The notes under the pieces are model-generated. The model worked only from the letters and a program-made list of their open reading frames with translations, did no database searches and was not told where the DNA came from. This document shows, one piece after another, positions 414 through 23,695 of a stretch of DNA of 23,695 bases. The stretch comes from a virus. The stretch is taken from positions 1 to 23,695 of IMG/VR virus record IMGVR_UViG_3300046680_000668. One strand, given 5' to 3'. The position numbers were made by a program, and so were the translations under genes. Within the stretch, counting starts at the first letter, position 1. Every line of letters starts with the position of its first letter.

Positions 414-533
414 GGCATCCTCCTGTTTCGCGTCCTATTAGCGCAACGGCACGGACACGGAATATCTGCGATTTCTGCTGTGCGACACTGTGCGAAAGGC
501 GTCATAGTCCGCGGCGCCACAGGGGAGGCCGTC

Positions 534-716
534 ATGGCCCGCACACCACCGCCCGCTAGTTCCAGCACCACCACGCGGATCGCGCCTCGGCCGAACACTG
601 CAATCGGACATTCCGCGATGGCTCGCGACCACGCCAAGGCCGCCGCTGCACACGCCTCCAAGGCTGAGCAACTGAGCCGCGATGCGCGACGCACCATGCC
701 GAAGAGCGCGCGGTAG
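534..716 (+). CDS. Small basic phage protein
   Basis: A 60-aa ORF starting at an ATG with a strong GGGGAGG ribosome site 5 nt upstream; longer upstream in-frame starts overlap the promoter region of the divergent gene and are less likely. The N-terminus is Pro/Ser/Thr-rich, followed by an Ala/Lys/Arg-rich stretch (AMARDHAKAAAAHASKAEQL) likely to be helical. It sits directly upstream of the first ejection protein gene in the same direction, so it may be a minor virion or morphogenesis protein. No family recognised. Confidence 0.55.
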   Translation: MARTPPPASSSTTTRIAPRPNTAIGHSAMARDHAKAAAAHASKAEQLSRDARRTMPKSAR

Positions 717-781
717 CCACACACGGAGGCGGACGGGCCTGCGGTGGCCGAGGAACATACCCTGCATTTAGGAGAACTGAG

Positions 782-1504
782 GTGCCCTTCTCTGTCGCTG
801 CGATCGGAGCTGGTGTGAGTGCTGCTGCTGGCATTGCCGGCGGCATCATGCAGAAGAACGCCGTCGACAAAGGGGCGTCGCAGGCCAGGGATGCGCTCAA
901 TCAGGGCGTCACGACTGCCACCAACCAGCTATCGCCATGGGCCACCTCGGGGCAGCCGGCGAACGCCGATCAGGCCGATCTGCTGGGACTGAACGGGCAG
1001 CCTGCGGCTGACGCAGCGATGGCGAAGTTCCAGAGTTCGCCTGGATATACCTGGCAGCTCGGCGAGGGATTACGTGCGGTGGACGCCGGTGCTGCGGCAA
1101 ACGGGCTGCTGCGCTCGGGCGCGGCGCTGAAGGCGGAGCAGACGTTCGGCAGCGGGTTGGCGGCGACCGATTTCGGCAACTACTGGAACCGACTACAGCA
1201 GCTCAGCGGGAGCGGCCTGACGGCGGCCGGCGGCATTGCCAACGCGGCGACCGGAGGTGCTGCGAACATCGCGAACGTCGATACCGGCCAGGCGAGTATG
1301 GACGCTAGTATCTACGGCAATATGGCGAAGGGCGTCAGCACGGGCGCCAACCAACTGATGAGCAACACGGCGTTTCAGAATGCCATCGGGGGCGGTGGCG
1401 GTAGCGGTGCTCCGCAAATGACCGGCTTCGCGCCTAGCCTGCAGGTAGGCCAGGAATACACTGGCGGCTTTGTCGCGCAGCCGCCGCGAACACAGGGCTA
1501 CTGA
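782..1504 (+). CDS. Ejection / DNA transfer protein (P22 gp7 / p32-like)
   Basis: A 240-aa Ala/Gly-rich protein starting at GTG with AGGAG 7 nt upstream. The N-terminus is a Gly/Ala hydrophobic segment (residues about 5-22) as in podoviral ejection proteins. The central 'SPGYTWQLGEGLRAVDAGAA' followed by 'GLLRSGAALKAEQTFGSGLA' and 'FGNYWNRLQQLSGSG' matches the pattern I know from phage 'DNA transfer protein p32' annotations. Such proteins are packaged inside the capsid and leave with the DNA to form a conduit across the cell envelope. The next gene begins 5 nt after its stop, so the three ejection genes form one transcription unit. Family call from memory; the exact role in the conduit is inferred. 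Confidence 0.8.
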   Translation: MPFSVAAIGAGVSAAAGIAGGIMQKNAVDKGASQARDALNQGVTTATNQLSPWATSGQPANADQADLLGLNGQPAADAAMAKFQSSPGYTWQLGEGLRAVDAGAAANGLLRSGAALKAEQTFGSGLAATDFGNYWNRLQQLSGSGLTAAGGIANAATGGAANIANVDTGQASMDASIYGNMAKGVSTGANQLMSNTAFQNAIGGGGGSGAPQMTGFAPSLQVGQEYTGGFVAQPPRTQGY

Positions 1505-1508
1505 TCCA

Positions 1509-3749
1509 ATGTCAGGATTTTTCTCTGCCAACGTCACCTCCCCGTTCCCTGATCAGAACGCGCTATTCGATGCCGCCAAAGTGGCGAACGCGGGGCAGGC
1601 GTATCAGAGCAACCAGTTGCACCTGCAGGGCCAGCAGATGGATCTGACCGCGGCTGACCACGAGCAAGTGGCGCGGCTGTCGGCGGCGTTGCTGAACGAA
1701 CCGGACCTGGGCAAGCGGGCAGATCTGTATTCGCGCGGGGTGGGGATGCTGCAGTCGCAGAACCTTGCCAAGTACGCGCCACCGACGCTGCCCGACGAGA
1801 GCACGCTGCGGATGCTGGCGGCGCAGGGCGTGTCGAGCGAGAAGCAGTACGAGTATGGCGCTGGCCGCTCGGCGGCACAGGGCGCGCTCGGGGCGCTGGG
1901 CATCGGTAGCACCGGGACGGGGACTGGCACGACAGGGGCGGCGCCGGCTGGCAGCGTGGCGACAGCACCATCAGGAACGATCGAACCGGCCGCCTTCAAC
2001 AACGCCACCGCCGTCCGCGACGGGTTAATCAAGCGCGGCATGGACCCAGACACGGCAACGGGAGCGGCAGCCAATGCGTTGCACGAAAGCGTTGCCAATC
2101 CTCGCACCGGACGGGGCGACAAGGGCAATGCCGCCGGCATCTTCATGTGGACGGGGCCGCGCCTCCAGGCATACATCGACAAGACCGGCCATCCGCCTGA
2201 CGGCGCTCCTCTCGATGAGCAACTCGACTTCCTGATGTCGGAGTGGAACGGCTCTGAGGCTGATGCTGCCGCGAAGGTCGCGGAGGCGAAGGGGCCGGCC
2301 GCCAAAGCGGCTGCGTTCTCGCAGTATTTCCTGCGGCCGAAGGACACACAGGGGGAGATGCAGCGGCGCTCGGCCACCGCGCTGCAACTGCAACAACAGA
2401 TCGGCGGGGGCGCCACGACTGCCAGCACAGCGCCAACGGGAGGCGTTGCTGCGCGCACAGGCGGGACCGACACGGCCGGACCTGGTGCAGGCCCGGTAGC
2501 GCCACCAGGGCCCACAGCGACGCCTGGCGGCGATCTGATGGGGCCTCGGGCGCTGCCCAGCATAGGCCCTGGATCGCCCGTCGTGACGCCGCAGTCACTG
2601 GCCAACACGCCAGTCCCACAGAACGGGCTTGCCCCGCCACCATCCGCCCAGGCCCCAACTCCCGCACAGCCAGGCCAGCCAGCACAGCCACAGGCGGCGC
2701 CGACACCAGCGCCAGCGCCTGTAGCGCCCCAGGTGCCGCTGGAGCCGTTGCTGGACCTGAAGCCGTCTGGCCTGACGGCGCAGCAGGAGGCGGCGGCCAA
2801 GAACGACCTAAGCCGGCAGGGACTAACGCCGGCCGCAGTGACGGCGATCACCGCGCACTACCAGCAACTCGCGGCCAGCAACGTGACGGCGAACCAGTCT
2901 ATCCGGTCAGCGAACAGGCAGGCGCAGAACGACGCGCAGGCGCAGCAAGAAAAGGCGCTTGCCGATACGCGGGCGGCGGAAACGCAGCGGTTGGCGCAGA
3001 TTACCAGCCAGAGGGAGCAGGAGGCGGCTCAGCGCGATACTGAGCGGCTGGCATTGCAGAAGAAGCAGGCCGAACAGGGGTCCACTCAGAACAGCCGGGA
3101 CGACTACACCCTTCGCACCGAAGACCCTTCAAGCCAGCAATACGCGGACGCCTACGTCAGGCAAAAGTGGACGATCGCGCCGAATGGCAACGTCATCGAG
3201 AATGACATATCGCGGTATCCTGCGCCAAACCGCAACATACAACGGCCCACCTTCCTGCCGGCGCCGACACCGCAGGGGCTGGACGAGGTTCGCAAGGCGG
3301 ATACCGATGCCAAGGTCATTACCTCTGCCATCGATCATTACACCGATGTCTTCGAAGCCACCGGTGGCGGTGGCTGGGATGCTTATTTCGCCAACCCGAC
3401 CGACCCGAAGACACAGCAACTGCTTGGCGCATTTGATCGGATGAAAACCGTCCTGCGGAGTCCGCAGTATTACAATACCGGGGTACTGCAGCCTGCCGAG
3501 ATCAAGCTGATGGGCGAGGATCTGGTGTCTCCGCAGTCGCTGCGCGGGGTATTTGCCACCCCGCAAGCGCTCGCAACCAGGCTGGGAGAAATCAAGCTTG
3601 CCGTTTTGACTCGGCAGGATGCGGAACTGCGTTCTGTCGGCAAGGATGGGGTGATTGTTCGTGACAAGGCAGACTATGCCAAAGTCCCCGATGGGGGGAG
3701 GTATTATGACGAGGAAGGCCATCTGAAAATTAAGTCGGGGAAGCAATAA
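1509..3749 (+). CDS. Ejection protein with phage tail-lysozyme-like domain
   Basis: A 746-aa protein read from ATG 1509; a start at 1470 is possible but would overlap the upstream gene by 35 nt. Residues about 163-292 form a lysozyme-like domain: 'ATGAAANALHES' with a candidate catalytic Glu193, then 'AAGIFMWTGPRLQAYID', the signature of the phage tail-lysozyme family (Phage_lysozyme2 type), and a helical end at 'FSQYFLRPKD'. A Pro/Ala/Gln-rich linker (about 300-425) and a charged Gln/Ala/Glu coiled-coil-like stretch (about 480-535) lead to a globular C-terminal region of unknown fold. Likely role: injected with the genome, opening peptidoglycan and forming part of the ejection tube. The low-complexity linker makes long false ORFs on the other strand. 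Stop and next start overlap by 1 nt (TAATG). Confidence 0.85.
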   Translation: MSGFFSANVTSPFPDQNALFDAAKVANAGQAYQSNQLHLQGQQMDLTAADHEQVARLSAALLNEPDLGKRADLYSRGVGMLQSQNLAKYAPPTLPDESTLRMLAAQGVSSEKQYEYGAGRSAAQGALGALGIGSTGTGTGTTGAAPAGSVATAPSGTIEPAAFNNATAVRDGLIKRGMDPDTATGAAANALHESVANPRTGRGDKGNAAGIFMWTGPRLQAYIDKTGHPPDGAPLDEQLDFLMSEWNGSEADAAAKVAEAKGPAAKAAAFSQYFLRPKDTQGEMQRRSATALQLQQQIGGGATTASTAPTGGVAARTGGTDTAGPGAGPVAPPGPTATPGGDLMGPRALPSIGPGSPVVTPQSLANTPVPQNGLAPPPSAQAPTPAQPGQPAQPQAAPTPAPAPVAPQVPLEPLLDLKPSGLTAQQEAAAKNDLSRQGLTPAAVTAITAHYQQLAASNVTANQSIRSANRQAQNDAQAQQEKALADTRAAETQRLAQITSQREQEAAQRDTERLALQKKQAEQGSTQNSRDDYTLRTEDPSSQQYADAYVRQKWTIAPNGNVIENDISRYPAPNRNIQRPTFLPAPTPQGLDEVRKADTDAKVITSAIDHYTDVFEATGGGGWDAYFANPTDPKTQQLLGAFDRMKTVLRSPQYYNTGVLQPAEIKLMGEDLVSPQSLRGVFATPQALATRLGEIKLAVLTRQDAELRSVGKDGVIVRDKADYAKVPDGGRYYDEEGHLKIKSGKQ

Positions 3750-5455
3750 TGTCCGAGGATAAGCCATGGTTAGATGATCCGGTTGTTCGACCTCTCGTTC
3801 CGACCGATCTACCGAAGGCATCGGATGAGAAGCAGACAGGGACAACTGCGCGCGGCGGCATGGTCCGAAACACAGCCGCTGGGGTTCTGGAAGGTGACGC
3901 GGCGGCTCTTAACACCCTGTCCGATCCGTTCGGCAACATCATCGGCAAGCCGGTCGAGACTGCCGCCATGTTCCTGCACGACGCGCTGGCACCAGTGTTC
4001 GGCTATGATCGATTTTCCGAAGAGGATCGCAAGACTCTGTCCGGCGATCCCGTGCCGCAACCTGGCACGCGCATTATCTCCGCTCTACCGGGCGCCAATC
4101 CGGCTGACGTGCCGGCCAACACGACGGCTGAACAAATCGCGCGCAAGACTGCTGCTGCTACCACTGCCGCCGGCACGCTAGGTGCTGGCGTCGGTCCAGC
4201 GCTGGTTGGCGCGGGTGGCGCGGTGACGGGGGATGTGGCGAGCCGGTTCGTGCCAGACTGGGCAAAGGACGCGACCGAATTGGCTGGTAATGTGGTGGGC
4301 GGCAAGGTGGCAACTAATGTTGTCTCGCCTGGCCGTACGGTCACGACGCCAGCGCGGCAGCGGTTGGTTGAAGCGCTGGATACCGAGGGCGTCCCACTGT
4401 CGGCTGGCGAACGGACCGGCAGCAAGCCGCTGATAAAAACCGAACAGATGCTTGGCCAGACGCCAGGCTCTGCGGGTGGGATTGCGGAGGACGTGGCAAC
4501 ACAGCAGCGCGCGGTAAACAAGGCAGTAGCGAGCAAGGCTGGGCTTGATTCCGAAACGCTCGACCCGACAGTGCTCAACAAGCACATGGACGGCCTGGGT
4601 ACGCAGATCGACACACTTGTATCAAACAACAACATGCCGATCGACGCGCCCTTCGCGCAGACGCTGGGCCAGATCAAGGCATCGCTGCAAAATATGAAGA
4701 CGGATGCGGCGCAGGAAATCCAGGCGAGGCTTGGCCAGCTAAACCGCATGATAACCGTTGACGCCAACGGAAACCCTATCGTCCCGGGCCGCGCTTTCCA
4801 AAGTCTCATCAGTGACCTGAACGACGCTATACGGGGTGCGAGTGGAACGACCCAGACCACGCTGCTGCAGTTTAAGGACACCCTGCGCCAGCAGATGGAA
4901 TCGGGTATGTCGCCGGACGACCAGACGCAGTACCGGCAACTGAACCGGCACTATGCAAATGGCAAGGTTATTCAGGACGCGATGGGGGCGGCGGGAACGA
5001 AGCCGGCAGAGGGCGACATCTCGCTGCCTCAGTTACGCGTCGCCATCAACCATTCACTTGGCAAGGACGCCTACGCGAAAGGCTATGGCGATCTGAACGA
5101 CATGGCACGGGCAGGCCAGAGCGTGTTGCGCAAGCCCCCGGACAGCGGCTCACCACAAGGAATGCTGATCAATGCCCTGATGAAGGGAGTACCACTCGCC
5201 CTTGGCGGCGCTGGGGGGTATCTGGGAGGGGTGGAGGGCTTTGCGGCTGGATTGGCCACGCCATGGGCGATCGGCACAGCGATGCGTGCGCGTATTCCCG
5301 GCACGAATTACAGCCCAGGTCAGGCTTATCTGACGAACCAGCTTACGCGAAATGTCGATCCGAAAATTGTCGCGGCGATCACGCAGGCGGCGAACGAGGA
5401 AGACCGGCGCAATCAGATGATGCCTACCATCACTGTCAGGCCGCAGCCTCAGTGA
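3749..5455 (+). CDS. Third ejection / internal virion protein
   Basis: A 568-aa protein whose ATG shares one base with the preceding stop, so translation is coupled. The N-terminus is acidic and Pro-rich. Residues about 130-165 are an Ala/Gly/Thr-rich hydrophobic stretch, the middle is helical (190-430), and residues about 471-512 are Gly-rich and membrane-like (near 'PLALGGAGGYLGG'), followed by 'YLTNQLTRN'. Size, position as the last of three and hydrophobic tail fit podoviral ejection proteins such as P22 gp16/gp20 types. No enzymatic motif seen. Its stop region overlaps a convergent membrane protein gene by 7 nt, an arrangement repeated at 8598-8610. Confidence 0.75.
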   Translation: MSEDKPWLDDPVVRPLVPTDLPKASDEKQTGTTARGGMVRNTAAGVLEGDAAALNTLSDPFGNIIGKPVETAAMFLHDALAPVFGYDRFSEEDRKTLSGDPVPQPGTRIISALPGANPADVPANTTAEQIARKTAAATTAAGTLGAGVGPALVGAGGAVTGDVASRFVPDWAKDATELAGNVVGGKVATNVVSPGRTVTTPARQRLVEALDTEGVPLSAGERTGSKPLIKTEQMLGQTPGSAGGIAEDVATQQRAVNKAVASKAGLDSETLDPTVLNKHMDGLGTQIDTLVSNNNMPIDAPFAQTLGQIKASLQNMKTDAAQEIQARLGQLNRMITVDANGNPIVPGRAFQSLISDLNDAIRGASGTTQTTLLQFKDTLRQQMESGMSPDDQTQYRQLNRHYANGKVIQDAMGAAGTKPAEGDISLPQLRVAINHSLGKDAYAKGYGDLNDMARAGQSVLRKPPDSGSPQGMLINALMKGVPLALGGAGGYLGGVEGFAAGLATPWAIGTAMRARIPGTNYSPGQAYLTNQLTRNVDPKIVAAITQAANEEDRRNQMMPTITVRPQPQ

Positions 5456-5682
5456 GGCAGGAACGGCGCCAGGATCAACGTGACTGCAAGGATGGCGCCA
5501 AGGGCCAGGAGCAAATCCCGCAAGCCACCCTCCGCAAGGAAAGCACGATAGCTTGGGACGACAAATGGTGGCAGGTGAAACAGCTCCTTGAGGCATGACT
5601 TCAGGAACAGCAGGGAGCCTACCACCACCAGAGCGAGCAGGACGCCTGCACAGGCTTCGTAAAGTATCTTAGCCATCGTCAT
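5449..5682 (-). CDS. Small two-TM membrane protein
   Basis: 77 aa from ATG 5682 (a GTG at 5685 is also possible; GGAGGG lies upstream). Hydrophobic segments at about residues 9-24 ('GVLLALVVVGSLLFL') and 55-72 ('LLLALGAILAVTLILAP') predict two membrane spans with a short charged loop between. The start overlaps the stop of a 19-aa ORF (TGATG), which overlaps the stop of the 111-aa gene in the same way. The last 7 nt overlap the end of the ejection protein gene on the other strand. Could be a holin-like or envelope-modifying phage protein; no family recognised and no endolysin nearby. Confidence 0.6.
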   Translation of the reverse strand: MTMAKILYEACAGVLLALVVVGSLLFLKSCLKELFHLPPFVVPSYRAFLAEGGLRDLLLALGAILAVTLILAPFLPH

Positions 5683-5741
5683 CACGCCCCGCCCTCCAGC
5701 TTCCTGAGGCAGACCGCAACACCGATGACGAAATGCAGCAT
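5682..5741 (-). CDS. 19-aa coupled micro-ORF, hydrophobic
   Basis: MLHFVIGVAV then CLRKLEGGA. It starts at an ATG overlapping the stop of the 111-aa gene (TGATG) and ends at a TGA overlapping the ATG of the 77-aa gene (TGATG), so it fills the gap between them exactly. A GGGAG ribosome site precedes it. The N-terminal half is hydrophobic and the rest basic, so it could be a membrane micropeptide. It may instead serve only to carry ribosomes to the downstream start. Confidence 0.45.
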   Translation of the reverse strand: MLHFVIGVAVCLRKLEGGA

Positions 5742-6076
5742 CACGCCGCTCCCTGATCGTGGTGCGGCAGAAACCAGAGCACGGACCGGGTTTTGAGGCT
5801 TCTGGCGGCCTCCGCTTGGCTCTCTGTGCTGCTGTCGTCTTGCGCCCGAGGTGGCTGTAGCGAGGCGCTTTCTCTGGACATCAGGCGGATAAGGATGATT
5901 GCGAAGACGCAAACGCCGCCCCAGCCCACGACGGGGTTAGTCTCAATGTTCACCAGCAGCAGGACCGCCAGCCCGAGCACGCTGAGCACCGGTAAGATTA
6001 AAACCAACAATCGGAGCAGCGTCAGGATAAGTCCGGCGACTATCAAGAAGACGAAAAAGCCGATGATGATGCTCAC
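5741..6076 (-). CDS. Membrane protein with C-terminal LPHHDQG motif
   Basis: 111 aa from GTG 6076, chosen because AGGGA lies 7 nt upstream and the protein then begins directly with a membrane segment; a longer ORF reaches 6154 without a good ribosome site and would run into the operator of the divergent antitoxin gene. Hydrophobic spans at about residues 2-20, 22-46 and 54-70 predict three membrane passes. A polar Ser/Gln/Ala tail ends in 'LKTRSVLWFLPHHDQGAA'. The membrane protein at 8598-8837 ends in 'LKPQRTVFWWLPHDQGP', so the two share a C-terminal motif although their spans differ. First gene of a coupled minus-strand trio. Function unknown. Confidence 0.65.
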   Translation of the reverse strand: MSIIIGFFVFLIVAGLILTLLRLLVLILPVLSVLGLAVLLLVNIETNPVVGWGGVCVFAIILIRLMSRESASLQPPRAQDDSSTESQAEAARSLKTRSVLWFLPHHDQGAA

Positions 6077-6127
6077 GCCGTATCCCTTCCGCGCCGCGAC
6101 CGTTGACGGCGATCTGCGGGCGCCGTA

Positions 6128-6145
6128 TCTAGTGAACTCACTAGA
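6128..6145. promoter_or_regulatory. Inverted repeat, probable antitoxin operator
   Basis: Arms TCTAGTGA and TCACTAGA are exact inverted repeats around a 2-nt centre, 14 nt before the antitoxin start codon. Phd/YefM-type antitoxins commonly bind such palindromes to autoregulate their operon; binding here is inferred from position. Confidence 0.6.
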
Positions 6146-6159
6146 CAAAGGCAAGCGCT

Positions 6160-6441
6160 ATGTCGATCACGGTCAACGCAACGGACGCTAATCAGCGTTT
6201 CGCGGAGTTATTGGGCAAGGTGGCCGCCGGCGAGACCGTCATCATCACCAAGCGCGGGGAGCCGGTGGCACAGCTCACCAGCTATCGTCCCGAGGCTGCC
6301 TCGCCTGCGCGCAAGGCGGCATGGGACAAGCTCATCGCCCGGTTGGGCAGCGTCCCTATGCCAGCCGGAGGTTTTGTCTGGAACCGAGATGAGTTGTACG
6401 GGGACCGGGAGGTAAAGGCGTTGGGCAAGCGCGGACGCTAA
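6160..6441 (+). CDS. Type II antitoxin, Phd/YefM family
   Basis: 93 aa. The N-terminal half ('NATDANQRFAELLGKVAAG' then 'ETVIITKRGEPVAQLTSY') is the classic Phd/YefM DNA-binding fold: short strand, helix, 'G-x-x-V-I-I-T-x-R-G-x-P-V-A' strand turn. The C-terminal part (after about residue 45) is the toxin-contacting tail, with 'MPAGGFVWNRDELYGDRE'. The stop is 3 nt before the GTG of the PIN-domain toxin gene, giving the usual antitoxin-first operon. A palindrome just upstream is the likely autoregulatory operator. Expected roles: neutralise the toxin, repress the operon and stabilise the element in its host. Confidence 0.9.
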   Translation: MSITVNATDANQRFAELLGKVAAGETVIITKRGEPVAQLTSYRPEAASPARKAAWDKLIARLGSVPMPAGGFVWNRDELYGDREVKALGKRGR

Positions 6442-6444
6442 GAC

Positions 6445-6900
6445 GTGGTCAGGTTTACGCTCGACACCAACATCCTGATCTATGCCTTGGCCAAGCAGGA
6501 CGACGCTAAAGCCAGCACCGCCCGCAAGCTGGTGCAGCGAGCCCGCGCGCAGGATTGCGTCATCACCATGCAGGCGCTCGGCGAGCTGTTTCACGTGCTC
6601 ACCGGCAGATTACGCAGGCCCGTGGCTGAGGCCGTCGCCGCAGTCGAGGAATGGCGCGCTGCCGTGCCCGTGGTAACGGCCGATGAAGCCTGCATGGTCG
6701 ACGCCATGGATGCGGTCGTGGGGCATAGCTTTTCGTTCTGGGACGCCATGCTGTGGATGACCGCCAAGCGCGCGGGCTGTCAGCTGTTGCTCAGCGAAGA
6801 CGGCGACGACGGGCGCTCGCTGCGCGGGGTGACGCTGGTCAACCCATTCGCCTCACCCCGCGCGCCGCTGCTGTTGCAAGCGCTCGGAGGCAGGCGATAG
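6445..6900 (+). CDS. vapC: PIN-domain toxin (VapC-like ribonuclease)
   Basis: 151 aa from GTG. PIN-domain acidic residues are visible: Asp7 in 'FTLDTNILIYAL', Glu47 in 'MQALGELFHVLTG', Asp100 in 'FSFWDAMLW', and Glu118/Asp119 in 'LLLSEDGDDG'. This is the Mg-dependent RNase core of VapC toxins, which typically cut tRNA or rRNA. It is paired with a Phd/YefM-type antitoxin. The protein looks full length and the active-site residues are intact. It is followed after 84 nt by tnpB, so the pair may have travelled with that transposon or be independent phage cargo. Confidence 0.9.
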   Translation: MVRFTLDTNILIYALAKQDDAKASTARKLVQRARAQDCVITMQALGELFHVLTGRLRRPVAEAVAAVEEWRAAVPVVTADEACMVDAMDAVVGHSFSFWDAMLWMTAKRAGCQLLLSEDGDDGRSLRGVTLVNPFASPRAPLLLQALGGRR

Positions 6901-6942
6901 GGCTTGGAACTGCTGCCCGAAAGCTAATGAAATCTCATGATC

Positions 6943-6957
6943 CCTGATGTTCTCATT
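6943..6957 (+). repeat. Left inverted repeat flanking tnpB
   Basis: CCTGATGTTCTCATT matches the reverse complement of 8153-8169 (CCTGATGATTTCTCATT) apart from a 2-nt gap. The pair brackets the tnpB gene almost exactly, so it may mark element ends or form a stem. IS200/IS605 elements normally have subterminal hairpins rather than long inverted repeats, so the meaning is uncertain. Confidence 0.45.
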
Positions 6958-6984
6958 CTGGCGACGGACCGGTAGTAGGCCACG

Positions 6985-8180: not shown

Positions 8181-8183
8181 GGA

Positions 8184-10695: not shown

Positions 10696-10697
10696 AA

Positions 10698-15731: not shown

Positions 15732-15747
15732 CGAGGGCCCCGGCACA

Positions 15748-16476: not shown

Positions 16477-16564
16477 CCCTCAACGTGCAACCGCCCCAGC
16501 GACGCGCGAGGGCGAGCACCAGGGCGGCAGCGACAATTTCGAGCGGCACCACGAGCGAAATACG

Positions 16565-16852
16565 TTGTCGGGCCACACGGTGCAAGCGCGGAGCGGGGCT
16601 GAAGGACCTTCAGCTGTGGTTCACCTCGACGCTTTTACCAGGCTCCGTCTGCAACGTGGATGTGAGCATCTACACCGGTTAGGCCCTCGAGCGACGGCCG
16701 AGCTGCTCGCCGAAGTCGATCACCGGATCGGCGGAATGGCATGTATTATCAACCTTCTTACCGAGTACGAGCAGCGCCTGTCGCCTCGCCTACTCCGCGC
16801 TGCCGGTGGCGATCGCTTCCCGCCGCGCCAGCTTCATTCGGTGCCGCGATGA
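16565..16852 (+). CDS. Hypothetical protein upstream of the ProQ gene
   Basis: 95 aa as read from TTG 16565; GTG 16580 or GTG 16616 are alternative starts and none has a good ribosome site. The body 'RGCEHLHRLGPRATAELLAE' and 'IGGMACIINLLTEYEQRLSP', ending 'LRAAGGDRFPPRQL', looks like a small helical protein I associate with Acetobacteraceae prophages. Its stop overlaps the ProQ-domain ATG (ATGA), strong support that this frame is translated. It is the first of a chain of ATGA-coupled genes leading to the helicase. Function unknown. The stretch 16477-16564 holds nothing I can identify. Confidence 0.6.
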   Translation: MSGHTVQARSGAEGPSAVVHLDAFTRLRLQRGCEHLHRLGPRATAELLAEVDHRIGGMACIINLLTEYEQRLSPRLLRAAGGDRFPPRQLHSVPR

Positions 16853-17334
16853 GCATCGCAAACCGCCCCACCACCACCCTAACGCTATCGCGCCCGCTCG
16901 ATCGCCTGACCACTGAGCGGCTGGAGCAACTCGGTGTCGGCCAGGAGCACCACGTCGACAACGCGCATCATCGGCACGTCCCAGCCGATGCTGAAACGCT
17001 CGCATGGAATAGAGCGCGCGAAGCCGAGTGGCACGCCGCGCCGGCCGCACTCGAAGCAATGCTGCGCGAGCTCGCACCAGCGGTGTTCAACGACGCCCCA
17101 CCACCGCTCGCCATCGGCGTAGGCGCTGTGCTGATCGCCCTGCTGGCCGGCGAATTCGAGGCGGGGATGGTCAGCCGCTTCCTCGCGGACTGGACCCGCC
17201 GGAGGGCTTATCTCGAGGCCCTGGCGCGCGGTGACGTCAGGCGCGACCTGGATGGGTGTCCCACCGATGCACCGGACGCAGCGGCCTGCACATTCGCAGC
17301 GGTGCTGCTGGGGCGGCGAGGGGGTGCGGCATGA
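16849..17334 (+). CDS. ProQ/FinO-domain RNA chaperone
   Basis: 161 aa from ATG 16849, overlapping the previous stop. Residues about 65-140 ('AMLRELAPAVFNDAPPPLAI', 'GVGAVLIALLAGEFEAGMVS', 'RFLADWTRRRAYLEALARGD', 'VRRDLDGCPTDAPDA') match the ProQ/FinO pattern: P-x-x-F, 'P-L-x-I-G', 'W-T-x-R-x-x-Y-L', then 'R-x-D-L-D-G'. The family binds structured RNAs and intrinsic terminators, and in plasmids controls conjugation (FinO) or replication genes. The first 60 residues are a variable, partly disordered extension. Located at the head of the replication operon, it may regulate copy number or a small RNA. The stop overlaps the next ATG (ATGA). Confidence 0.82.
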   Translation: MSIANRPTTTLTLSRPLDRLTTERLEQLGVGQEHHVDNAHHRHVPADAETLAWNRAREAEWHAAPAALEAMLRELAPAVFNDAPPPLAIGVGAVLIALLAGEFEAGMVSRFLADWTRRRAYLEALARGDVRRDLDGCPTDAPDAAACTFAAVLLGRRGGAA

Positions 17335-17759
17335 GCGCCGGCAGCGCACGGCCTAATCCCTGGGTGGGCTGCGTCGTCATCAAGCTGACACCGATCCGCA
17401 GCGGGCGTCCGATTTGTTACTTCAGCGCAAGATTTCCGGTGCTCGAGCTGACGCTCGCCGGCTGCACGTTGTGGCTCACGCGGGCCGGCAAGCCCTGGGC
17501 CGCGCCGCCGAAACAGCGGCGGCAACTGCCGGACAACACAACCGAGTGGAGCGACCTCGTCTCTTGGGACAGTGGCCGCCCCGCTTCGATGTTCAACGAA
17601 GCATGTCTCACGGCGATCGCCGCACACTCACCGGAATTGCTGCAGCCGCTGATCGAGGGTCGTAGCGAGCCAGCTCCGCTCGCACTGCCGAGCCAGCAAC
17701 GCACCAGGCCAGCCGTGGCACCGCCGCATGCGCCGGACTGGTGGGAGCGCGATCGATGA
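17331..17759 (+). CDS. Hypothetical protein, SpoVG-like N-terminal strands possible
   Basis: 142 aa from ATG 17331 (ATGA overlap with the ProQ gene). The N-terminal half, 'VIKLTPIRSGRPICYFSARF', 'PVLELTLAGCTLWLTRAGKP', 'WAAPPKQRR', looks like an all-beta unit reminiscent of small phage SpoVG-like proteins (a strand with 'G', a hydrophobic 'L-x-L-x-G-C-x-L' strand and a 'P-x-K' end). The middle 'SMFNEACLTAIAAHSPELLQ' is a helix and the tail is Pro-rich and ends 'APDWWERDR'. The fold assignment is weak. Its stop overlaps a 12-aa ORF. Confidence 0.55.
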   Translation: MSAGSARPNPWVGCVVIKLTPIRSGRPICYFSARFPVLELTLAGCTLWLTRAGKPWAAPPKQRRQLPDNTTEWSDLVSWDSGRPASMFNEACLTAIAAHSPELLQPLIEGRSEPAPLALPSQQRTRPAVAPPHAPDWWERDR

Positions 17760-17794
17760 GCGGCGAACAACAACAACAGGGGGAACGCCGATGA
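17756..17794 (+). CDS. 12-aa coupling ORF (MSGEQQQQGERR)
   Basis: The start overlaps the upstream stop (ATGA) and the stop overlaps the downstream ATG (ATGA). It contains the Gln-rich codons and the GGGGGA ribosome site of the next gene. It most likely lets ribosomes step from one gene to the next; a peptide function cannot be excluded. Confidence 0.4.
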   Translation: MSGEQQQQGERR

Positions 17795-18036
17795 CCGAGC
17801 CTCGCGCATGGACGGATCGGCAACTAAAGGAGCTCGGCACGCGGCTACACACCGATGCCGGCATGGCCGAGCTGATGGACGAGTGCTTTGGCCAGGATGG
17901 CTGGGTCTATGACGCCAGCGACGAACTGTGGGTCGCTCAGGACCAGAGATACCAAGGAGAAGGGCGCAGCTATTACCTCGTCCGCCGCGGCGGAAATTGG
18001 ACCAAAGCCATCTTGCGCGACCAGGTGCTGTCATGA
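17791..18036 (+). CDS. Hypothetical small acidic protein
   Basis: 81 aa from ATG 17791, with GGGGGA upstream inside the 12-aa ORF. Sequence 'TDRQLKELGTRLHTDAGMAE' then 'DASDELWVAQDQRYQGEGRS' and 'YYLVRRGGNWTKAILRDQ' suggests a helix followed by a small beta unit. No family recognised. Its stop overlaps the ATG of the primase-helicase, so it is likely made at a fixed ratio with it and may assist replication. Confidence 0.6.
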   Translation: MTEPRAWTDRQLKELGTRLHTDAGMAELMDECFGQDGWVYDASDELWVAQDQRYQGEGRSYYLVRRGGNWTKAILRDQVLS

Positions 18037-20054
18037 GCGCGCACAGCAACTTCGTGCCCGATCCGTCATGGCCAACCATCGTGGAACTGGCGACCGAACT
18101 ATGGGGACAACCGACCGACCGGAGGCATGATGAGGTGCGCTGGGGCACCAATGGCTCGAAGTCGGTGAAGCCGTCCGCCAACACATTCTTCGATCACGAG
18201 TCCGGCGATGGTGGCGGCTATGTCGAGATGTGGCGGCTGGCGCGGCACGGTGCCCCGCTGCCCCCACGAGAGACCGCCAGGCCGAAACCGACTCCGGGCG
18301 GAGACCAGGTGCCGCCGTGGGAGAACATCGGGACCACCTACGACTATCGCGACGCCGGCGGCGATCTGGTGCTGCAAGTCATCCGCACGCTCACCGGCCA
18401 GCCGCGCTTCCTGCAGCGTGCACCGGACCCCAGCAGCCGCAGCGGCTGGAAGTACTCGGTCAAGCACATCCCCGACCACGATTGCCTGCTGTACCGGCTG
18501 CCCGGCCTACGCGCCTCCGGCGATGTGCCCGTGTTGATACCCGAAGGCGAAAAGGACGTTGATCGGCTGCATGATGAAGGTCAGGTCGCGACTTGCAACA
18601 TCGGTGGCGCGGGCAAGTGGCGCCCTGAATATGCCGAGCAATTCCGCGACAAGCATGTTGTCGTGCTGGCCGACAACGACCAGGCCGGACGCGACCACGC
18701 AGCCGCGGTGGCACGATCGCTGATTGGCATTGCTGCGTCGGTCAAAGTGCTGTCGCTGCCGGGACTGCCGGAAAAGGGCGACGTGTCGGACTGGCTCGAT
18801 AACAACGGCACGATCGAGGAGCTGATGCGGCTCGCCGGCGAGGCGGAGGAGTTCACATCACCGGACGCGGATGAGCCGCCGCCAGGCGATGCCCAGCTCG
18901 CCTGGGCCACCATCCGTCAGGTCAGCGCCATCCCGCCACGTCGATGGGCATACGGCCGGTTCCTGCTGTTCGGCTCCGCCGCCGTCATCGGCGCGGTCGA
19001 CGGCGCCGGCAAGGGCATGATCGCCACCGTAATGGCGCTGGCCATGATCTCTGGCCGGCCGCTACTCGGCGAGAAAGTCTGGCGCACCGGCCCGGTCGCC
19101 ATCATCACCTATGAGGACGATCAGGAGGAATGGGAACGCCGCTTCGCCGCCGCCTGCCTGCTCTATGAACTCGACTACATGACCATGATGAAAAGCGTCG
19201 CCTTCCTGCACAAGCCGAACGGCCGTGTCACCCTGGCCGAGCGGACGAAAGACGGCCTGAACTTCCCCGACACCGCCCGCATCGTCCACTTCCTGAAGGC
19301 GCACGGCTTCGTCCTGCTGATCATCGACCCGTTTAACAGCGCTCACGCGATGGATGACGGCAATAACAACGTCGCCATCGCAGCCGTTGCCCAGGAAGTC
19401 ACCACCATTGCCCACCGCGGCATCCTCGCCGTCTTGGTCCTGCACCACCTGCGCAAAGGCTCCACCGGCTCCATCGATGACCTCATGGGCGCCACCAGCC
19501 TGCGCGCCAACTTCCGGTCCTGCCGAATTATCCAGGGAATGGACGGACCCACCGCCATCGGCTTCGACCTCCCCGCCGCCGAGGCGTGGCGATACCTCTG
19601 GGTCGCCGGCACCACCGAAAACTACGCCCCGCCGGTCGCCGAACGCATCTGGTTTCACAAGCAAAGCATCGATCTGGGCAACCCAGGCGGTATCTACACA
19701 ACCGGCGACAGCGTCGGCGCCATCGAGCGCTGGACCCCGCCCGCCGCTTACGAGGGCATGGACCACGACAGGATGCGCGCCGTGTTCGACGCGCTCGCCG
19801 CCCAACCTCACGCCAAAAACCAACGCGCCTCCATCCCGTGGGCCGGCAAGCCGCTGATGAATGCCGGACGAACCGAGGTCCAGGCTAAAAAGATACTCGC
19901 GGATTGGTTGCAGTCCGATACGCTGATCCCAGGCGAGGAGGTCAAGGGCGAGAGCCGTCATCCCGTCCAGACGGTAATGCCAAACCCGACCAAGGTCGCC
20001 TCCATCCTGGCCGCGCTGGGTGGCGGAACCCGCTGGGAAGCAGCCCGTGCGTGA
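18033..20054 (+). CDS. TOPRIM domain plus RepA-like helicase (phage primase-helicase)
   Basis: 673 aa from ATG 18033 (ATGA overlap; a longer ORF from 17928 is unlikely). Residues about 165-235 are a TOPRIM fold: Glu171 in 'VPVLIPEGEKDVDRL' and Asp214/Asp216 in 'VVVLADNDQAGRD'. Residues about 305-480 are a RecA-like ATPase: Walker A 'GAVDGAGKGM' (320-329), Walker B 'FVLLIIDPFNSAHAMDDG' (426-443), and 'AVLVLHHLRKG'. The Walker A Ser/Thr after Lys is Gly. No zinc-binding primase motif is seen upstream (residues 1-160 contain 'FFDHESGDGGG', typical of this group). It should unwind, and perhaps help prime, the element's DNA. The iteron cluster lies directly downstream. Confidence 0.88.
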   Translation: MSAHSNFVPDPSWPTIVELATELWGQPTDRRHDEVRWGTNGSKSVKPSANTFFDHESGDGGGYVEMWRLARHGAPLPPRETARPKPTPGGDQVPPWENIGTTYDYRDAGGDLVLQVIRTLTGQPRFLQRAPDPSSRSGWKYSVKHIPDHDCLLYRLPGLRASGDVPVLIPEGEKDVDRLHDEGQVATCNIGGAGKWRPEYAEQFRDKHVVVLADNDQAGRDHAAAVARSLIGIAASVKVLSLPGLPEKGDVSDWLDNNGTIEELMRLAGEAEEFTSPDADEPPPGDAQLAWATIRQVSAIPPRRWAYGRFLLFGSAAVIGAVDGAGKGMIATVMALAMISGRPLLGEKVWRTGPVAIITYEDDQEEWERRFAAACLLYELDYMTMMKSVAFLHKPNGRVTLAERTKDGLNFPDTARIVHFLKAHGFVLLIIDPFNSAHAMDDGNNNVAIAAVAQEVTTIAHRGILAVLVLHHLRKGSTGSIDDLMGATSLRANFRSCRIIQGMDGPTAIGFDLPAAEAWRYLWVAGTTENYAPPVAERIWFHKQSIDLGNPGGIYTTGDSVGAIERWTPPAAYEGMDHDRMRAVFDALAAQPHAKNQRASIPWAGKPLMNAGRTEVQAKKILADWLQSDTLIPGEEVKGESRHPVQTVMPNPTKVASILAALGGGTRWEAARA

Positions 20055-20063
20055 ACCCTCGCA

Positions 20064-20189
20064 ACTGCGCAAACACTGCGCACTGACTGCGCTGCGCAGT
20101 GAATGGGGACCCCATAGTCCACTGCGCAACTGCGCACCCTCCATGACCGTGCAAACACTGCGCACTCACTACGCAAAAGACCGCGCAGT
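20064..20189. repeat. Iteron cluster, candidate replication origin
   Basis: Five exact ACTGCGCA copies (20064, 20075, 20121, 20129, 20157) plus near copies ACTGCGCT (20086) and ACTACGCA (20168) and inverted copies near 20092-20100 and 20183-20189. The first copies are 11 bp apart, one helical turn. A 13-bp palindrome (20103-20115, ATGGGGACCCCAT) separates two groups. The location immediately after the helicase gene fits a phage/plasmid origin bound by an initiator. Confidence 0.65.
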
Positions 20190-20206
20190 CTCGGGCGTGC
20201 CGCAGC

Positions 20207-20248
20207 GGGCAAGGTGCACGGCAGCGCGCCTCAAGCGCGCGCCTTGCC
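20207..20248. other. Nested GC-rich hairpin near the origin
   Basis: GGCAAGG pairs with CCTTGCC (20242-20248), and inside GCGCGC (20224-20229) pairs with GCGCGC (20235-20240) around CTCAA. It could be an origin structure, a strong helicase-operon terminator without a T run, or an RNA element. The rest of 20249-20435 holds no gene I can support; a GGCCTAGGCC palindrome lies near 20368. Confidence 0.4.
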
Positions 20249-20435
20249 GCGCAAGCCCGCCAGCGACACGTGGGCACCTCAAGTTCAAACCGCGCCACCG
20301 CGCAAGGCAACCGGTGGTTGAGAACCTCCACACGAGCCAGGAGGGTCAGACGGTGCGGCCCGCCGTGGCCTAGGCCTCGAACCCCGTCACGTACGCGCGC
20401 GCGACGGCCAACACCCCAGCGACAGGAGGAACCCG

Positions 20436-20663
20436 ATGACCGAGCTATGCCAGCGTTGCGGCGAACATCCGGTGGCAGACGAGGGGCCGCCACGCTTCCC
20501 GTTCTGCGAGGCCTGCTGGCCCACCGTCGGGGCGCACTACTCCGTCGACGAGAACGGCGACTTCATCGGCTTCATGACCGAGGCCGAGATCGCCGACAGT
20601 TACCGCCAAGCCGGCGAGGCCGCACTCCAGAGGGCCGAAGAGGAGGGAGAACTGCCATGCTGA
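20436..20663 (+). CDS. Small zinc-ribbon protein
   Basis: 75 aa from ATG 20436, with AGGAGG 6 nt upstream. The N-terminus 'CQRCGEHPVADEGPPRFPFC' then 'EACW' has two Cys-x2-Cys pairs (Cys5/Cys8 and Cys24/Cys27), a zinc ribbon. The rest is an acidic helix ('EAEIADSYRQAGEAALQRAE'). Such small ribbons often bind nucleic acid or a partner enzyme; the function here is unknown. It overlaps the next small ribbon gene by 7 nt. Confidence 0.72.
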   Translation: MTELCQRCGEHPVADEGPPRFPFCEACWPTVGAHYSVDENGDFIGFMTEAEIADSYRQAGEAALQRAEEEGELPC

Positions 20664-20788
20664 AGTGCCTCGACTGCGACATCCCACTGGAGGGAGCCAT
20701 GACGCCGGAGCATCCGCTGTGCGAGCGGTGTCTCAGGCGCGATCTCCACGACGGGAGGGGGTCGCCGTGGTTGCCGCCAGCACGCTAA
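20657..20788 (+). CDS. 43-aa zinc-ribbon protein
   Basis: Reads 'MLKCLDCDIPLEGAMTPEHP' and 'LCERCLRRDLHDGRG'. Two Cys-x2-Cys pairs (Cys4/Cys7 and Cys22/Cys25) match those of the preceding gene, so the two may share origin. The start at 20657 has GGAGGGAG upstream and overlaps the previous stop. A longer in-frame ORF (from 20270) is not supported by a ribosome site. Confidence 0.55.
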   Translation: MLKCLDCDIPLEGAMTPEHPLCERCLRRDLHDGRGSPWLPPAR

Positions 20789-20833
20789 TCGCCGCAGTAT
20801 CCGCGCCCGCCGGTCGGCACTAGGAGCTGCCCC

Positions 20834-21028
20834 ATGCCATCACCAGACGCTATCGACCACGCCGACATCATCGCCGGTGTCGAACGTGCCCTCGTCAGAT
20901 TGCTCACCGCGCCAGACACCGACGGTGCGTTTTATGATGCGGTTCGGCAAGGAACGCGCGATGCAATTTGGGCGATCGCCGCTCAATGCACTGACGCAGA
21001 CATACCGCCCGCTGGTCACGCGAACTGA
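20834..21028 (+). CDS. Hypothetical small helical protein
   Basis: 64 aa from ATG 20834 with AGGAG 7 nt upstream. 'DAIDHADIIAGVERALVRLL' then 'DTDGAFYDAVRQGTRDAIWA' predicts two helices with an acidic character. No family recognised. It lies just upstream of terS in the same direction, so it may be expressed with the packaging genes. Confidence 0.6.
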   Translation: MPSPDAIDHADIIAGVERALVRLLTAPDTDGAFYDAVRQGTRDAIWAIAAQCTDADIPPAGHAN

Positions 21029-21050
21029 GCCCCGCGCATAGCCGCCAGCC

Positions 21051-21470
21051 GTGGCATATCCGAGCTCCTACAGCGACGAGCTTGCGCTCGAGATCTGCAC
21101 GCGCCTTGCCGAGGGTGAGTCGCTGAAACGCATATGCAGCGACGAGGGCATGCCAAACCGCAGCACGGTCAACGCCTGGCGCCGCGACCATCCAGCGTTC
21201 AGTGCGATGTTTGCGCGTGCCCGGGAAGACTGCAGCGACACCATGGCCGAAGCTGCTGTCGCAGTGGCAATGACTGCCACGTCCGAGACCGCGCAGGCCG
21301 TGCGCGTTAAGTACGACGCGTTGAGATGGTACGCGTCAAAGTTGGGGCCGAAAATTTACGGCGACAAAGTCCAGCACGTCGGCGATGGCGGCGGTGCGAT
21401 CAGCCTGACGATCGAAACCGGCATCCGCCGCAGCAGCGACAGCAGCAGAGCCGACGGCGATGCATCTTGA
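21051..21470 (+). CDS. terS: Terminase small subunit
   Basis: 139 aa from GTG 21051. The N-terminal half is a helix-turn-helix ('ELALEICTRLAEGESLKRIC' then 'SDEGMPNRSTVNAWRRDHPA') followed by 'FSAMFARAREDCSDTMAEAA', and then 'AQAVRVKYDALRWYASKLGP' with 'KIYGDKVQHVG', the usual ending of Sf6-type TerS proteins. TerS binds the phage pac/cos site, assembles as a ring and hands DNA to TerL. It overlaps TerL by 11 nt, the standard arrangement. Confidence 0.9.
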   Translation: MAYPSSYSDELALEICTRLAEGESLKRICSDEGMPNRSTVNAWRRDHPAFSAMFARAREDCSDTMAEAAVAVAMTATSETAQAVRVKYDALRWYASKLGPKIYGDKVQHVGDGGGAISLTIETGIRRSSDSSRADGDAS

Positions 21471-22776
21471 TCTGGGCTACCGACCACGCCCTCAGTTCGA
21501 GGCATTTCACGCGCGCACGCAACGCTGGGCTTGCATCGTGGCTCATAGGAGAGCTGGCAAAAGTTTAGCGTGCGCTATGGACCTGATCGATGCGGCCCTG
21601 CGCTGCAAGAAACCAGACGGTCGTTTCGCTTATGTCGCACCGACATTCACCCAGGCCAAGGACGTGGTCTGGGGTTATATGAAGCGCTACACACAGCAGA
21701 TCCCGCAAATCGATGTGCGGGAGAGCGACCTGAGCGTCATTCTCCCCAACGGCGCGCGTGTCCGATTGTACGGCTCCGATAACTATGACCGGATGCGCGG
21801 CTTATATTTCGACTCCGTCGTGATGGACGAATACGCCGACCAGTATCCACAGGCGTGGTCACAGGTCATCCGTCCGGCGCTGACCGATCGCGGCGGCACA
21901 GCGGTGTTCATTGGCACACCGAAGGGGCGCAACGCGTTCTACGACGTCTATGACTACGCCAAGCGCCATCCGGCCGAGTGGTTTGCGCTGGAGCTGCGGG
22001 CATCCCAGACCGGGCTCCTGCCCAACGCCGAGCTGGAAAGCGCCCGCGCCACACTGACTCCCGAGCAGTATAGCGCCGAGTTCGAGTGTTCATTCGATGC
22101 AGCGGTTTTGGGTGCTTATTACGCCACGGAGATCGCCGAGGCAGAGAACGCCGGGCGTATCGGCGACGTGCCGGTCGATCCTGAACTGCCCGTTCACACC
22201 GCTTTTGACCTCGGCATCGGCGACTCAACCGCCATCTGGTTTTTCCAACTCCTAGGAAAGGAAGTCCGGGTCGTCGACTACTACGAGGCGTCCGGCAAAG
22301 GCCTTGCACATTATGCCGCCGTTTTGGAGGACAAGGGTTACAACTACGGCACCGACTGGCTGCCTCATGACGGCATGGCTCGTGAAATGGGCACCGGACG
22401 CAGTCGTTTCGAGACGTTGAAAGCGTTGACCGGTCGGCATCCGCGGATCGTGCGGAACCTCAGCGTGCCGGATGGCATCAACGCGGCGCGGGTGACGATC
22501 GCCTCGTGCTGGTTCGATGCCGAGCGCTGCCGCGACGGGCTCGAGGCGCTGCGTGCCTATCACGCAGACTTCGACGAACGGACCAAGGCGTTCGACGTTC
22601 GGCCGAAACATAACTGGGCGAGTCACGGTAGTGATGCGTTTCGCTATCTCGCGGTGGCCTGGCGCGAGATGCAGCCGGAGAAGCCCAAGGCACAACCACC
22701 GGTCGATCACTGGGATCGAGCTTTTGAGCGGGCGGCCGCCGGCGACGGCTACGCGACGTCGTGGCGCACGGCCTGA
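21460..22776 (+). CDS. terL: Terminase large subunit
   Basis: 438 aa from ATG 21460. ATPase: Walker A 'VAHRRAGKSLA' (residues 29-35), Walker B 'SVVMDEYAD' (120-124), coupling motif 'IGTPKG' (151-156). Nuclease (RNase H-like): Asp250 in 'HTAFDLGIGDSTAIWF', candidate Asp304 in 'WLPHDG', Asp392 in 'WASHGSDAFRYLA'. All key residues are intact, so it can presumably package DNA. In most podoviruses the portal gene follows terL directly; here a 512-nt non-coding stretch and a minus-strand gene follow instead. Confidence 0.95.
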   Translation: MHLDLGYRPRPQFEAFHARTQRWACIVAHRRAGKSLACAMDLIDAALRCKKPDGRFAYVAPTFTQAKDVVWGYMKRYTQQIPQIDVRESDLSVILPNGARVRLYGSDNYDRMRGLYFDSVVMDEYADQYPQAWSQVIRPALTDRGGTAVFIGTPKGRNAFYDVYDYAKRHPAEWFALELRASQTGLLPNAELESARATLTPEQYSAEFECSFDAAVLGAYYATEIAEAENAGRIGDVPVDPELPVHTAFDLGIGDSTAIWFFQLLGKEVRVVDYYEASGKGLAHYAAVLEDKGYNYGTDWLPHDGMAREMGTGRSRFETLKALTGRHPRIVRNLSVPDGINAARVTIASCWFDAERCRDGLEALRAYHADFDERTKAFDVRPKHNWASHGSDAFRYLAVAWREMQPEKPKAQPPVDHWDRAFERAAAGDGYATSWRTA

Positions 22777-22870
22777 CGACCGCCAAGGCCACGGCTGCCA
22801 GGCTGGACGATAACGAAAAGGGGGTCGCTACTACCGACACCCTTGGCGGCCAGCAATCAATGACCATCGC

Positions 22871-22898
22871 ACGCGAGAGATACCCTCCAGATTGCGGA
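22871..22898. repeat. 28-nt repeat, copy A
   Basis: Matches 22976-23003 at 25 of 28 positions; the shared core is CCCTCCAGATTGCGGA. The two copies are 105 bp apart, ten helical turns. Confidence 0.6.
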
Positions 22899-22904
22899 GG
22901 GTAT
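22880..22904 (+). terminator. Terminator-like hairpin after terL
   Basis: Exact 9-bp arms ATACCCTCC and GGAGGGTAT with loop AGATTGC. It lies about 100 nt after terL. The T-tract is short and imperfect, so termination is only suggested. Confidence 0.4.
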
Positions 22905-22975
22905 TCCTGGCAACCCAACGTCAGCGTCATCAGAGGGCCGAGTTTCGTTCCAACCCGGCGCACGCCTTGATGATG

Positions 22976-23003
22976 ACGAGAAAGATGCCCTCCAGATTGC
23001 GGA
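22976..23003. repeat. 28-nt repeat, copy B
   Basis: Second copy of the 28-nt repeat. It lacks the GGAGGGTAT arm that makes the hairpin in copy A, so the shared sequence is not explained by the hairpin alone. Confidence 0.6.
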
Positions 23004-23032
23004 CCCCATCGGACGCCCACAGGAAAGAGAAA

Positions 23033-23056
23033 TTCGGTCAAGTATACCTGACCGAA
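23033..23056. promoter_or_regulatory. 24-bp near-perfect palindrome with GTATAC centre
   Basis: Outer arms TTCGGTCA and TGACCGAA are exact inverted repeats; the centre GTATAC is itself palindromic; only one base pair breaks the symmetry. Candidate operator or recombinase site. Confidence 0.5.
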
Positions 23057-23250
23057 CGATCGGTTTGCATCGGCTGCGTGAGTGCGAAAGGGATGACGTC
23101 GCTCAGAGCGACGCCATCGGCAGGCCGCAGCACCGACATTGCCAACACGCTTCCCACTGTTAGGCTGTTCGAGCGTGTCTCGCGCAGCTTTCGCTGCCAC
23201 GGAGACGGCATTTCATCGGCTTGTGCAGTTTCCGCGCTGTGCTCTCGCTG

Positions 23251-23695
23251 CACAGCACTTACGGTGCCGATTGAGACATCAACGCGCTTCAGTTGGGCTT
23301 CGGCGCAGCTCCAGACTCGTCTGGCGTCCCAGCTGCCCGGGTAGCCAGCAGCAGCGCGCCTTCGAGAGCTGCCTTCAGTGAGTGCGCCGCGGGAATGTTC
23401 ATCCGGAGGTGCGCGACAATAACGCGGTCGTTGGCCACCCCGCCAAAGGGCATGGGCACGTCGCGTGATGCCTCCAGCGTAACGCGGATCATGCCGTTCA
23501 GGTGCCCAATCGCGGAGGCCTGCTCGAAGTAGAGGAACGGGGCGTGCGCACTGGCAAGTGCAGAGATGCCGCCTTCGAGGCTCGGTATTGTCTCGACGAC
23601 GACTTGCGGCTTCGTGCGGGACTCGTCGGTCATGGCATCCTCCTGTTTCGCGTCCTATTAGCGCAACGGCACGGACACGGAATATCTGCGATTTC
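23251..23695. repeat. Diverged copy of 34-475
   Basis: Homology with 34-475 begins at CACAGCACTTACGG and runs to the last base of the window. It includes a 3-nt insertion and scattered substitutions in the gene, but the final 99 nt (23597-23695) are identical to 377-475. Confidence 0.9.
23289..23633 (-). CDS. Hypothetical phage protein, copy 2 of a duplicated gene
   Basis: 114 aa, homologous along its whole length to the gene at 72-413. It has one extra Val ('QVVVETIPSLEGG') and substitutions such as 'GHLNGMIRV' for 'GCLTGIIRV', 'MPFGG' for 'MPQDG' and 'LEGALLLA' for 'LDAALLLA'. Start and AGGAGG ribosome site are identical. Many of the differences between copies are at third codon positions, so both look functional. 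It follows the non-coding stretch after terL on the opposite strand. Function unknown. Confidence 0.75.
   Translation of the reverse strand: MTDESRTKPQVVVETIPSLEGGISALASAHAPFLYFEQASAIGHLNGMIRVTLEASRDVPMPFGGVANDRVIVAHLRMNIPAAHSLKAALEGALLLATRAAGTPDESGAAPKPN

Follow-up and report, generated by a model that had tools for sequence, protein, structure and literature searches.

Several phage satellites are known that combine genes of their own with the particles of a helper. As outlined in the relevant parts of PMC10690885, PICIs borrow particles, in some cases with a TerS of their own; cf-PICIs have genes for capsid, portal and terminase and borrow tails; and two satellites of Streptomyces phages, Mulch and Flayer, have genes for capsid and packaging. 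In the portion of PMC11389934 that deals with their origin, satellites arise by reductive evolution from defective phages, which is a model there, and the frequency of mobilisation and the survival of such elements are given as not known.

The element described here is close to each of these systems in part. Like cf-PICIs, it carries TerS and TerL and would need a helper for other virion parts; unlike cf-PICIs, which by the account in PMC10690885 encode capsid, protease, portal and connectors, it is without these genes and keeps ejection proteins instead. Mulch and Flayer are similar in being satellites with packaging genes, but as described in the same source they have a full capsid and packaging set and are without key replication genes, whereas the element has kept a replication gene and lost head and tail. 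In PICIs and SaPIs with their own TerS, this protein redirects packaging into a helper virion, a likeness to the element; however, TerS occurs there without TerL or ejection proteins, and such islands are not obviously phage derivatives formed by one deletion (PMC10690885, in the sections concerned). Also comparable is the proto-hitcher of the reductive evolution model, a defective phage that resembles its helper and depends on it; proto-hitchers are largely a model in that part of PMC11389934, while the element is a sequence in which the scar of the deletion can be seen, together with signs of an exchange at a later time. None of the PICIs, cf-PICIs or Mulch and Flayer, as portrayed in those sections, corresponds to terminase plus ejection proteins with no head and no tail. 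In the open-licence text of PubMed Central, as far as its retrieved excerpts extend, no phage satellite with ejection or injection proteins is described, and in PMC13216270 and PMC6893505 the term 'ejection protein' stands in the reference list. What is new here is the deletion scar; with the scar still legible and with signs of a later exchange of terminase, the element is a candidate for the origin of a satellite. The retention of ejection proteins without portal, capsid or tail would also put to the test the idea of a satellite that dresses a borrowed particle with its own entry machinery.

Ends of the record and the circle

The window, by which we mean the whole stretch of DNA analysed, is an entire IMG/VR virus record of 23,695 bases that originates from soil. 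Its ends share a repeat (34-475 versus 23251-23695) in which 400 of 446 positions are identical (90% overall), and within this repeat 377-475 and 23597-23695 agree over 99 bases with no mismatch, which is probably the usual k-mer-overlap signature of a contig end. Given this overlap, and given that a second contig (L004, below) crosses the junction, the sequence appears to be a circle of 23,220 bp (476-23695) closed via the 99 bases. The features of the ends are:

1-33, no strand: contig start, holding the perfect palindrome AAATCCGCACCGGTGCGGATTT; differs from the corresponding DNA of L004 and L002
34-475, no strand: end repeat, left copy (allele A), lying beyond the inferred circle up to 475
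72-413, minus strand: small gene (allele A; 113 aa), with relatives on two further viral contigs
23289-23633, minus strand: small gene, allele B, 114 aa; protein identical to the L002 copy
23597-23695, no strand: circle-closing overlap, identical to 377-475; L004 crosses the junction unbroken

The initial annotation had made its reading conditional on the circle being real, and contigs of two other metagenomes that span the critical junction without a capsid block support the circle; a contig linking the sequence to a portal and capsid cluster, named there as evidence to the contrary, was not found. Bases 1-33, with 0 matches in an exact IMG/VR search, may be either an end artefact or a different sequence context upstream of allele A.

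Packaging and ejection genes

The genes for TerS, TerL and three ejection proteins, previously noted as intact, are all full-length open frames with clear family matches:

21051-21470, plus strand: TerS of the Sf6 type (Pfam Sf6_terminase PF20901, 4.3e-35; phrog_1482, 5e-36)
21460-22776, plus strand: TerL, 438 aa (phrog_2, 1.5e-36); relatives at 62-69%
782-1504, plus strand: ejection protein 1, 240 aa (phrog_598 'DNA ejection', 2.1e-25); 84-85% to L098
1512-3749, plus strand: ejection protein 2, 745 aa (Phage_lysozyme2, a phage tail lysozyme domain, 4.6e-19; phrog_9570)
3749-5455, plus strand: ejection protein 3, 568 aa (phrog_26400 'DNA ejection protein', 6.3e-28); 80-83% to L086

Relatives of ejection protein 2 occur in L098, L097, L086 and G006. 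An alphaproteobacterial host is likely, since the relatives of ejection protein 3 in named genomes belong to Bradyrhizobium, Phyllobacterium and a Rhizobiaceae MAG, with 27-29% identity in bacterial genomes. No integrated copy was present in the bacterial genomes searched, in which only these distant ejection-protein relatives were found, and megablast against the phage collection gave 0 matches.

Ejection protein 1 differs from its L098 relative with dN 0.13 and dS 0.70. In relative-rate comparisons it had 18 changes in the window only and 13 in L098 only, and TerL had 41 in the window and 42 in L012; these figures show no decay, but they mix time before and after the deletion and offer no proof of use. 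Four of the six comparisons were lopsided and left unused (83 versus 10 for the N-part of ejection protein 2, 73 versus 27 and 73 versus 20 for TerL, and 17 versus 60 for ejection protein 1 against L086), as G006 is closer to one member of the pair in these cases and is a valid outgroup only where it is the more distant sequence; three of the six, namely the N-part of ejection protein 2 and TerL twice, were lopsided against the window.

Missing head-tail block and deletion scar

In agreement with the first reading of the sequence, profile scans of the open reading frames of the window gave no portal, capsid or tail genes. The portal profile A2 (phrog_156 type), the second portal type (phrog_12082) and the head-closure family (phrog_578) had no match in the window, L004 or L002, and the same profiles do match in ordinary relatives; a hidden portal or capsid gene was rejected on the two portal profiles together with the head-closure family. 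The other frames scanned contained no capsid, tail or endolysin family, apart from the lysozyme domain that forms part of ejection protein 2, a spanin-like match of low strength (0.0081) and a membrane ORF of the DUF2335 family. Portal and head-tail genes are absent after terL in the window and L004, and all three contigs are without the genes for a complete virion.

The expected arrangement can be seen in an ordinary podovirus of 40,057 bp (IMGVR_UViG_3300045141_000187, G006), in which TerL (65%), ejection protein 1 (73%) and ejection protein 2 (69%) are encoded in the same order as in the element. Unlike in the element, terL and ejection gene 1 of this phage are separated by a block of ~21.9 kb that includes portal and head-closure genes; in the circle their spacing is ~1.2 kb. 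Among 79 other contigs with a TerL relative, the portal gene lies downstream of terL in 52 of the 52 that have at least 4 kb of downstream sequence, and in 57 of the 58 with at least 3 kb. With terminases of the second type (terL2), a portal was found in 32 of 37 contigs with at least 4 kb downstream; in two of the five remaining contigs (L210 and L215) the portal lies at a distance of more than 8 kb, and L209 (7.1 kb downstream), L214 (4.8 kb) and L218 (6.0 kb) have none in the available sequence. In L209 and L218, contigs of 10,251 and 10,009 bp with a terL2 relative, the portal may come further on, as it does in L210 and L215. Head closure is present in five of the six other records with related ejection genes (G003, G004, G006, G012 and G013), and it is missing from the sixth (G005, the same as L088), an 18.6-kb fragment whose match to ejection protein 2 is only 34%. 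Further contigs considered as portal-free terminase carriers were rejected: antisense frames had hidden the portal gene in L033 and L035, and L064, L065, L066, L067, L069 and L077 have a large open frame at the place of the portal, which is the second portal type in the two that were scanned (L064 and L077); all six are included in the 52 of 52.

Directly before ejection gene 1, an open frame of ~115-145 aa is found in L098, L097, L086 and G006, which we call cupin-like after weak, sub-threshold Pfam matches in two frames scanned. The window retains only the end of this gene:

726-781, plus strand: deletion scar, the last ~18 codons, frameshifted, of the cupin-like gene preceding ejection gene 1

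This stretch matches the final codons of the cupin-like gene in all four relatives, with local alignments starting at 726 in three of them and at 732 in L098. When 3,377 stretches of 56 bases, taken from the window in 7-base steps, were compared with these relatives, none of them, those around 650-790 being excluded, reached the score of 726-781 against any relative. Read from the alignment, the remnant has one extra base and its end is out of frame. On this comparison the right breakpoint is shown to lie at ~725/726, inside the cupin-like gene; for the breakpoint on the left, only scattered weak matches resulted when the DNA after terL was compared by tblastx with terL relatives. The homologous TerL and ejection genes, their canonical order and the remnant of a neighbouring gene identify the element as a podovirus by descent, and the scar supports the earlier proposal of a deletion derivative.

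Two further contigs and the small gene

An exact IMG/VR search with the 99-base overlap returned L002 and L004 only, and the set of contigs bearing the element consists of three members, including the window, from an uncurated metagenome collection. L004 (IMGVR_UViG_3300046517_001564; 14,718 bp) aligns to the window over its full length, its positions 1-10076 being 99.4% identical to 13617-23695 and its positions 9635-14718 being 99.9% identical to 34-5117. It leads without a break from terL to the ejection genes, with a single copy of the small gene (allele A) and no capsid block between them. Outside the small gene, nine differences from the window are located in 13744-14060 and six in 818-1514, and L004 is thus a separate genotype and not the same assembly repeated. 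In L002 (IMGVR_UViG_3300046678_001109; 7,427 bp) the same ejection genes are preceded, again in unbroken sequence, by a different intact terL (480 aa; phrog_2, 2.8e-34) and then allele B of the small gene. The middle of the circle (5.7-13.6 kb) is present in the window only.

As L004 and L002 are identical between the small gene and ejection gene 1, scar included, one deletion event appears to underlie all three contigs, and the swap of terminase in L002 probably came after the deletion. With the scar common to forms that have two different terminases, the deleted lineage, judging from these contigs, is one that survived beyond the deletion event.

The two copies of the small gene in the window may best be read as strain alleles of one gene, because L004 and L002 carry a single copy each, A and B respectively. 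Alleles A and B differ mostly at silent sites (dN 0.048, dS 0.494), and the structure predicted for the small protein has a mean pLDDT of 52.6 and a pTM of 0.35. A gene pair flanking the capsid block was rejected as the main reading on the grounds of these single copies, and the deletion by recombination between two flanking gene copies that the initial annotation had envisaged is not supported, since the copies behave as alleles of one gene. The small gene (43-383 versus 23251-23596) is ~12% divergent between strains and the ejection-gene flank is near-identical, a pattern as if the small gene had been exchanged alone.

Early region

The early region encodes replication and maintenance genes of the element's own, namely the primase-helicase, the serine recombinase and the toxin-antitoxin pair:

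6160-6441, plus strand: Phd/YefM-type antitoxin (PF02604, 7.5e-10)
6445-6900, plus strand: PIN-domain toxin (PF01850, 2.6e-12)
14099-14812, plus strand: serine recombinase of the resolvase/integrase type, 237 aa (PF00239, 1.3e-25; phrog_125/phrog_95)
16741-17334, plus strand: ProQ/FinO-domain protein, on a phage-derived element (PF04352, 7.4e-11, above cut-off)
18030-20054, plus strand: primase-helicase for replication (AAA_25, 3e-27; phrog_25693, phrog_239), scanned as 17928-20054

The gene order of PICIs is int-stl-alpA-rep-terS. The recombinase, HTH_17, primase-helicase and TerS genes of the element stand in this order, and its TerL and ejection genes do not fit it; no stl-like gene was called in the window, and integration was not seen.

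The primase-helicase has distant matches in named phages and plasmids. Many other viral contigs (L113, L115, L118-L120, L122-L126, L140, L141, L148, L170 and L181) have a related primase-helicase (~31-36%) and a related serine recombinase (~39-43%) on opposite strands, separated by a few kb, as a shared early module. The recombinase gene is followed by two C-terminal partial copies, to 15731 (repeat family D2), and attached to each of these is a short segment containing CxxC and HHLYS...WLC..CH motifs, which we take to be HNH-like. After the primase-helicase gene, 20064-20174 contains a 29-base repeat in two copies, rich in ACTGCGCA, as possible origin or binding sites. Adjoining the toxin-antitoxin pair, 6985-8136 encodes a stand-alone TnpB/Cas12f-like protein (OrfB_IS605, 1.4e-24), next to which no TnpA was noticed. 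Beyond the TnpB gene, a 122-aa frame (8242-8610) resembles by eye the C-terminal end of a large ejection protein and had no family match. Two overlapping minus-strand frames at 8841-9489, in a region outside L004, presumably represent one phage endonuclease gene broken by a frameshift, to judge from a motif.

Origin and role of the element

The structure of the element and its scar are well supported. It is plausible that this podovirus-derived circle of ~23.2 kb, having lost the block from portal to tail, is a proto-satellite born by deletion and dependent on a helper; the helper-dependent role is a best guess, about even with all alternatives taken together. With regard to function, the best guess is that the element brings its own packaging and entry proteins to a borrowed particle, as this would be the most economical use of the kept TerS, TerL and ejection set. 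A more specific version, put forward tentatively, is that of a satellite lineage derived by one deletion, which has its own motor and injection proteins, takes its complete shell and tail from related podoviruses and switches terminase to suit different helpers.

The proposed course of events begins with a podovirus that would have lost the whole portal-to-tail block in a deletion, at the junction of which a small phage gene is now located. The lineage would later have exchanged its terminase, as L002 suggests, and from its gene content the circle may replicate with its own primase-helicase and be kept by the recombinase and the toxin-antitoxin pair. On infection by a related podovirus, TerS and TerL would dock on the helper portal and fill the helper head with satellite DNA, and the ejection proteins would join the helper-built particle, from which the satellite DNA could enter the next cell. 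Podoviruses with a related terminase and a portal are found in the metagenomes of L002 (3300046678_000514, L196, terL2 type) and L004 (3300046517_000265 and _000510, L018 and L040, terL type), but such phages are common in soil and their co-occurrence is weak support for a helper. The analysis turned up no helper, no packaging signal and no gene for capsid size or interference.

The main rival is a phage-derived plasmid or decayed phage-plasmid, a circle that persists inside cells and in which the terminase and ejection genes are unused, recent leftovers. The plasmid-like early parts, namely the Phd-PIN toxin-antitoxin pair, the resolvase-type recombinase and the ProQ/FinO domain, point to it and speak against a satellite, and are joined by a replication protein that distantly resembles RepA-family helicases/AAA ATPases of Methylobacterium and Microvirga plasmids and by the degenerate-looking region at 8.2-11.3 kb, most of which has little frame bias. 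The ejection genes, moreover, have no more than a handful of sites that differ between the three contigs, and the deletion may thus have happened too recently for any decay to be visible; if it is young, the plasmid reading fits nearly as well. On the other hand, the replacement of one intact terminase by another after the deletion would be odd for dead genes, the only match to ejection protein 3 in plasmid records is one of 28% on a 1.7-Mb replicon, and megablast against 72,556 plasmids gave 0 matches, so that we consider a plasmid rather unlikely, if the strongest of the alternatives.

A transient deletion derivative, that is, a defective genome of a co-resident full phage without a lineage of its own, would agree with a scar left by a simple deletion and with retained late genes that are ordinary phage genes in canonical order. 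It is improbable, as the same scar accompanies two terminases in different metagenomes, which implies a history of its own, and a pattern search of IMG/VR, which was non-exhaustive, found no parent above 85% for any ejection gene or above 69% for TerL. The window alone would also fit an assembly artefact, in which a full phage of ~45 kb with the small gene flanking its head-tail block twice was falsely joined: the repeat copies differ (90%), the contig stops at a 99-base identity and the start (1-33) is unaccounted for. However, the single copies in L004 and L002 are of different alleles and lie in unbroken sequence, for which two further false joins would be required, and the phage homology on the right side ends inside a gene at 726, past the repeat, where a join through the repeat fails to explain it; an artefact is accordingly very improbable. 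Still more remote is a divided phage genome with the head-tail block on a partner circle that is co-packaged or co-infecting. The clean loss of the whole block with terminase and ejection genes kept would suit it, but the 99-base search, with its two hits, gave no head-tail contig bearing the junction sequence.

DNA after terL

As first described, terL is followed by non-coding DNA (~510 bp) and then by a repeat copy:

22777-23288, no strand: non-coding DNA after terL, with the hairpin TACCCTCC-7-GGAGGGTA, a near-repeat at 22871/22976 and a palindrome at 23034-23055

The folding of 23000-23110 is no better than that of shuffled sequences (z 0.87). The palindrome, TCGGTCAAGTATACCTGACCGA, is a possible operator; among the loci compared it is otherwise found only in L183 (582-603), where the surroundings are 87% identical.
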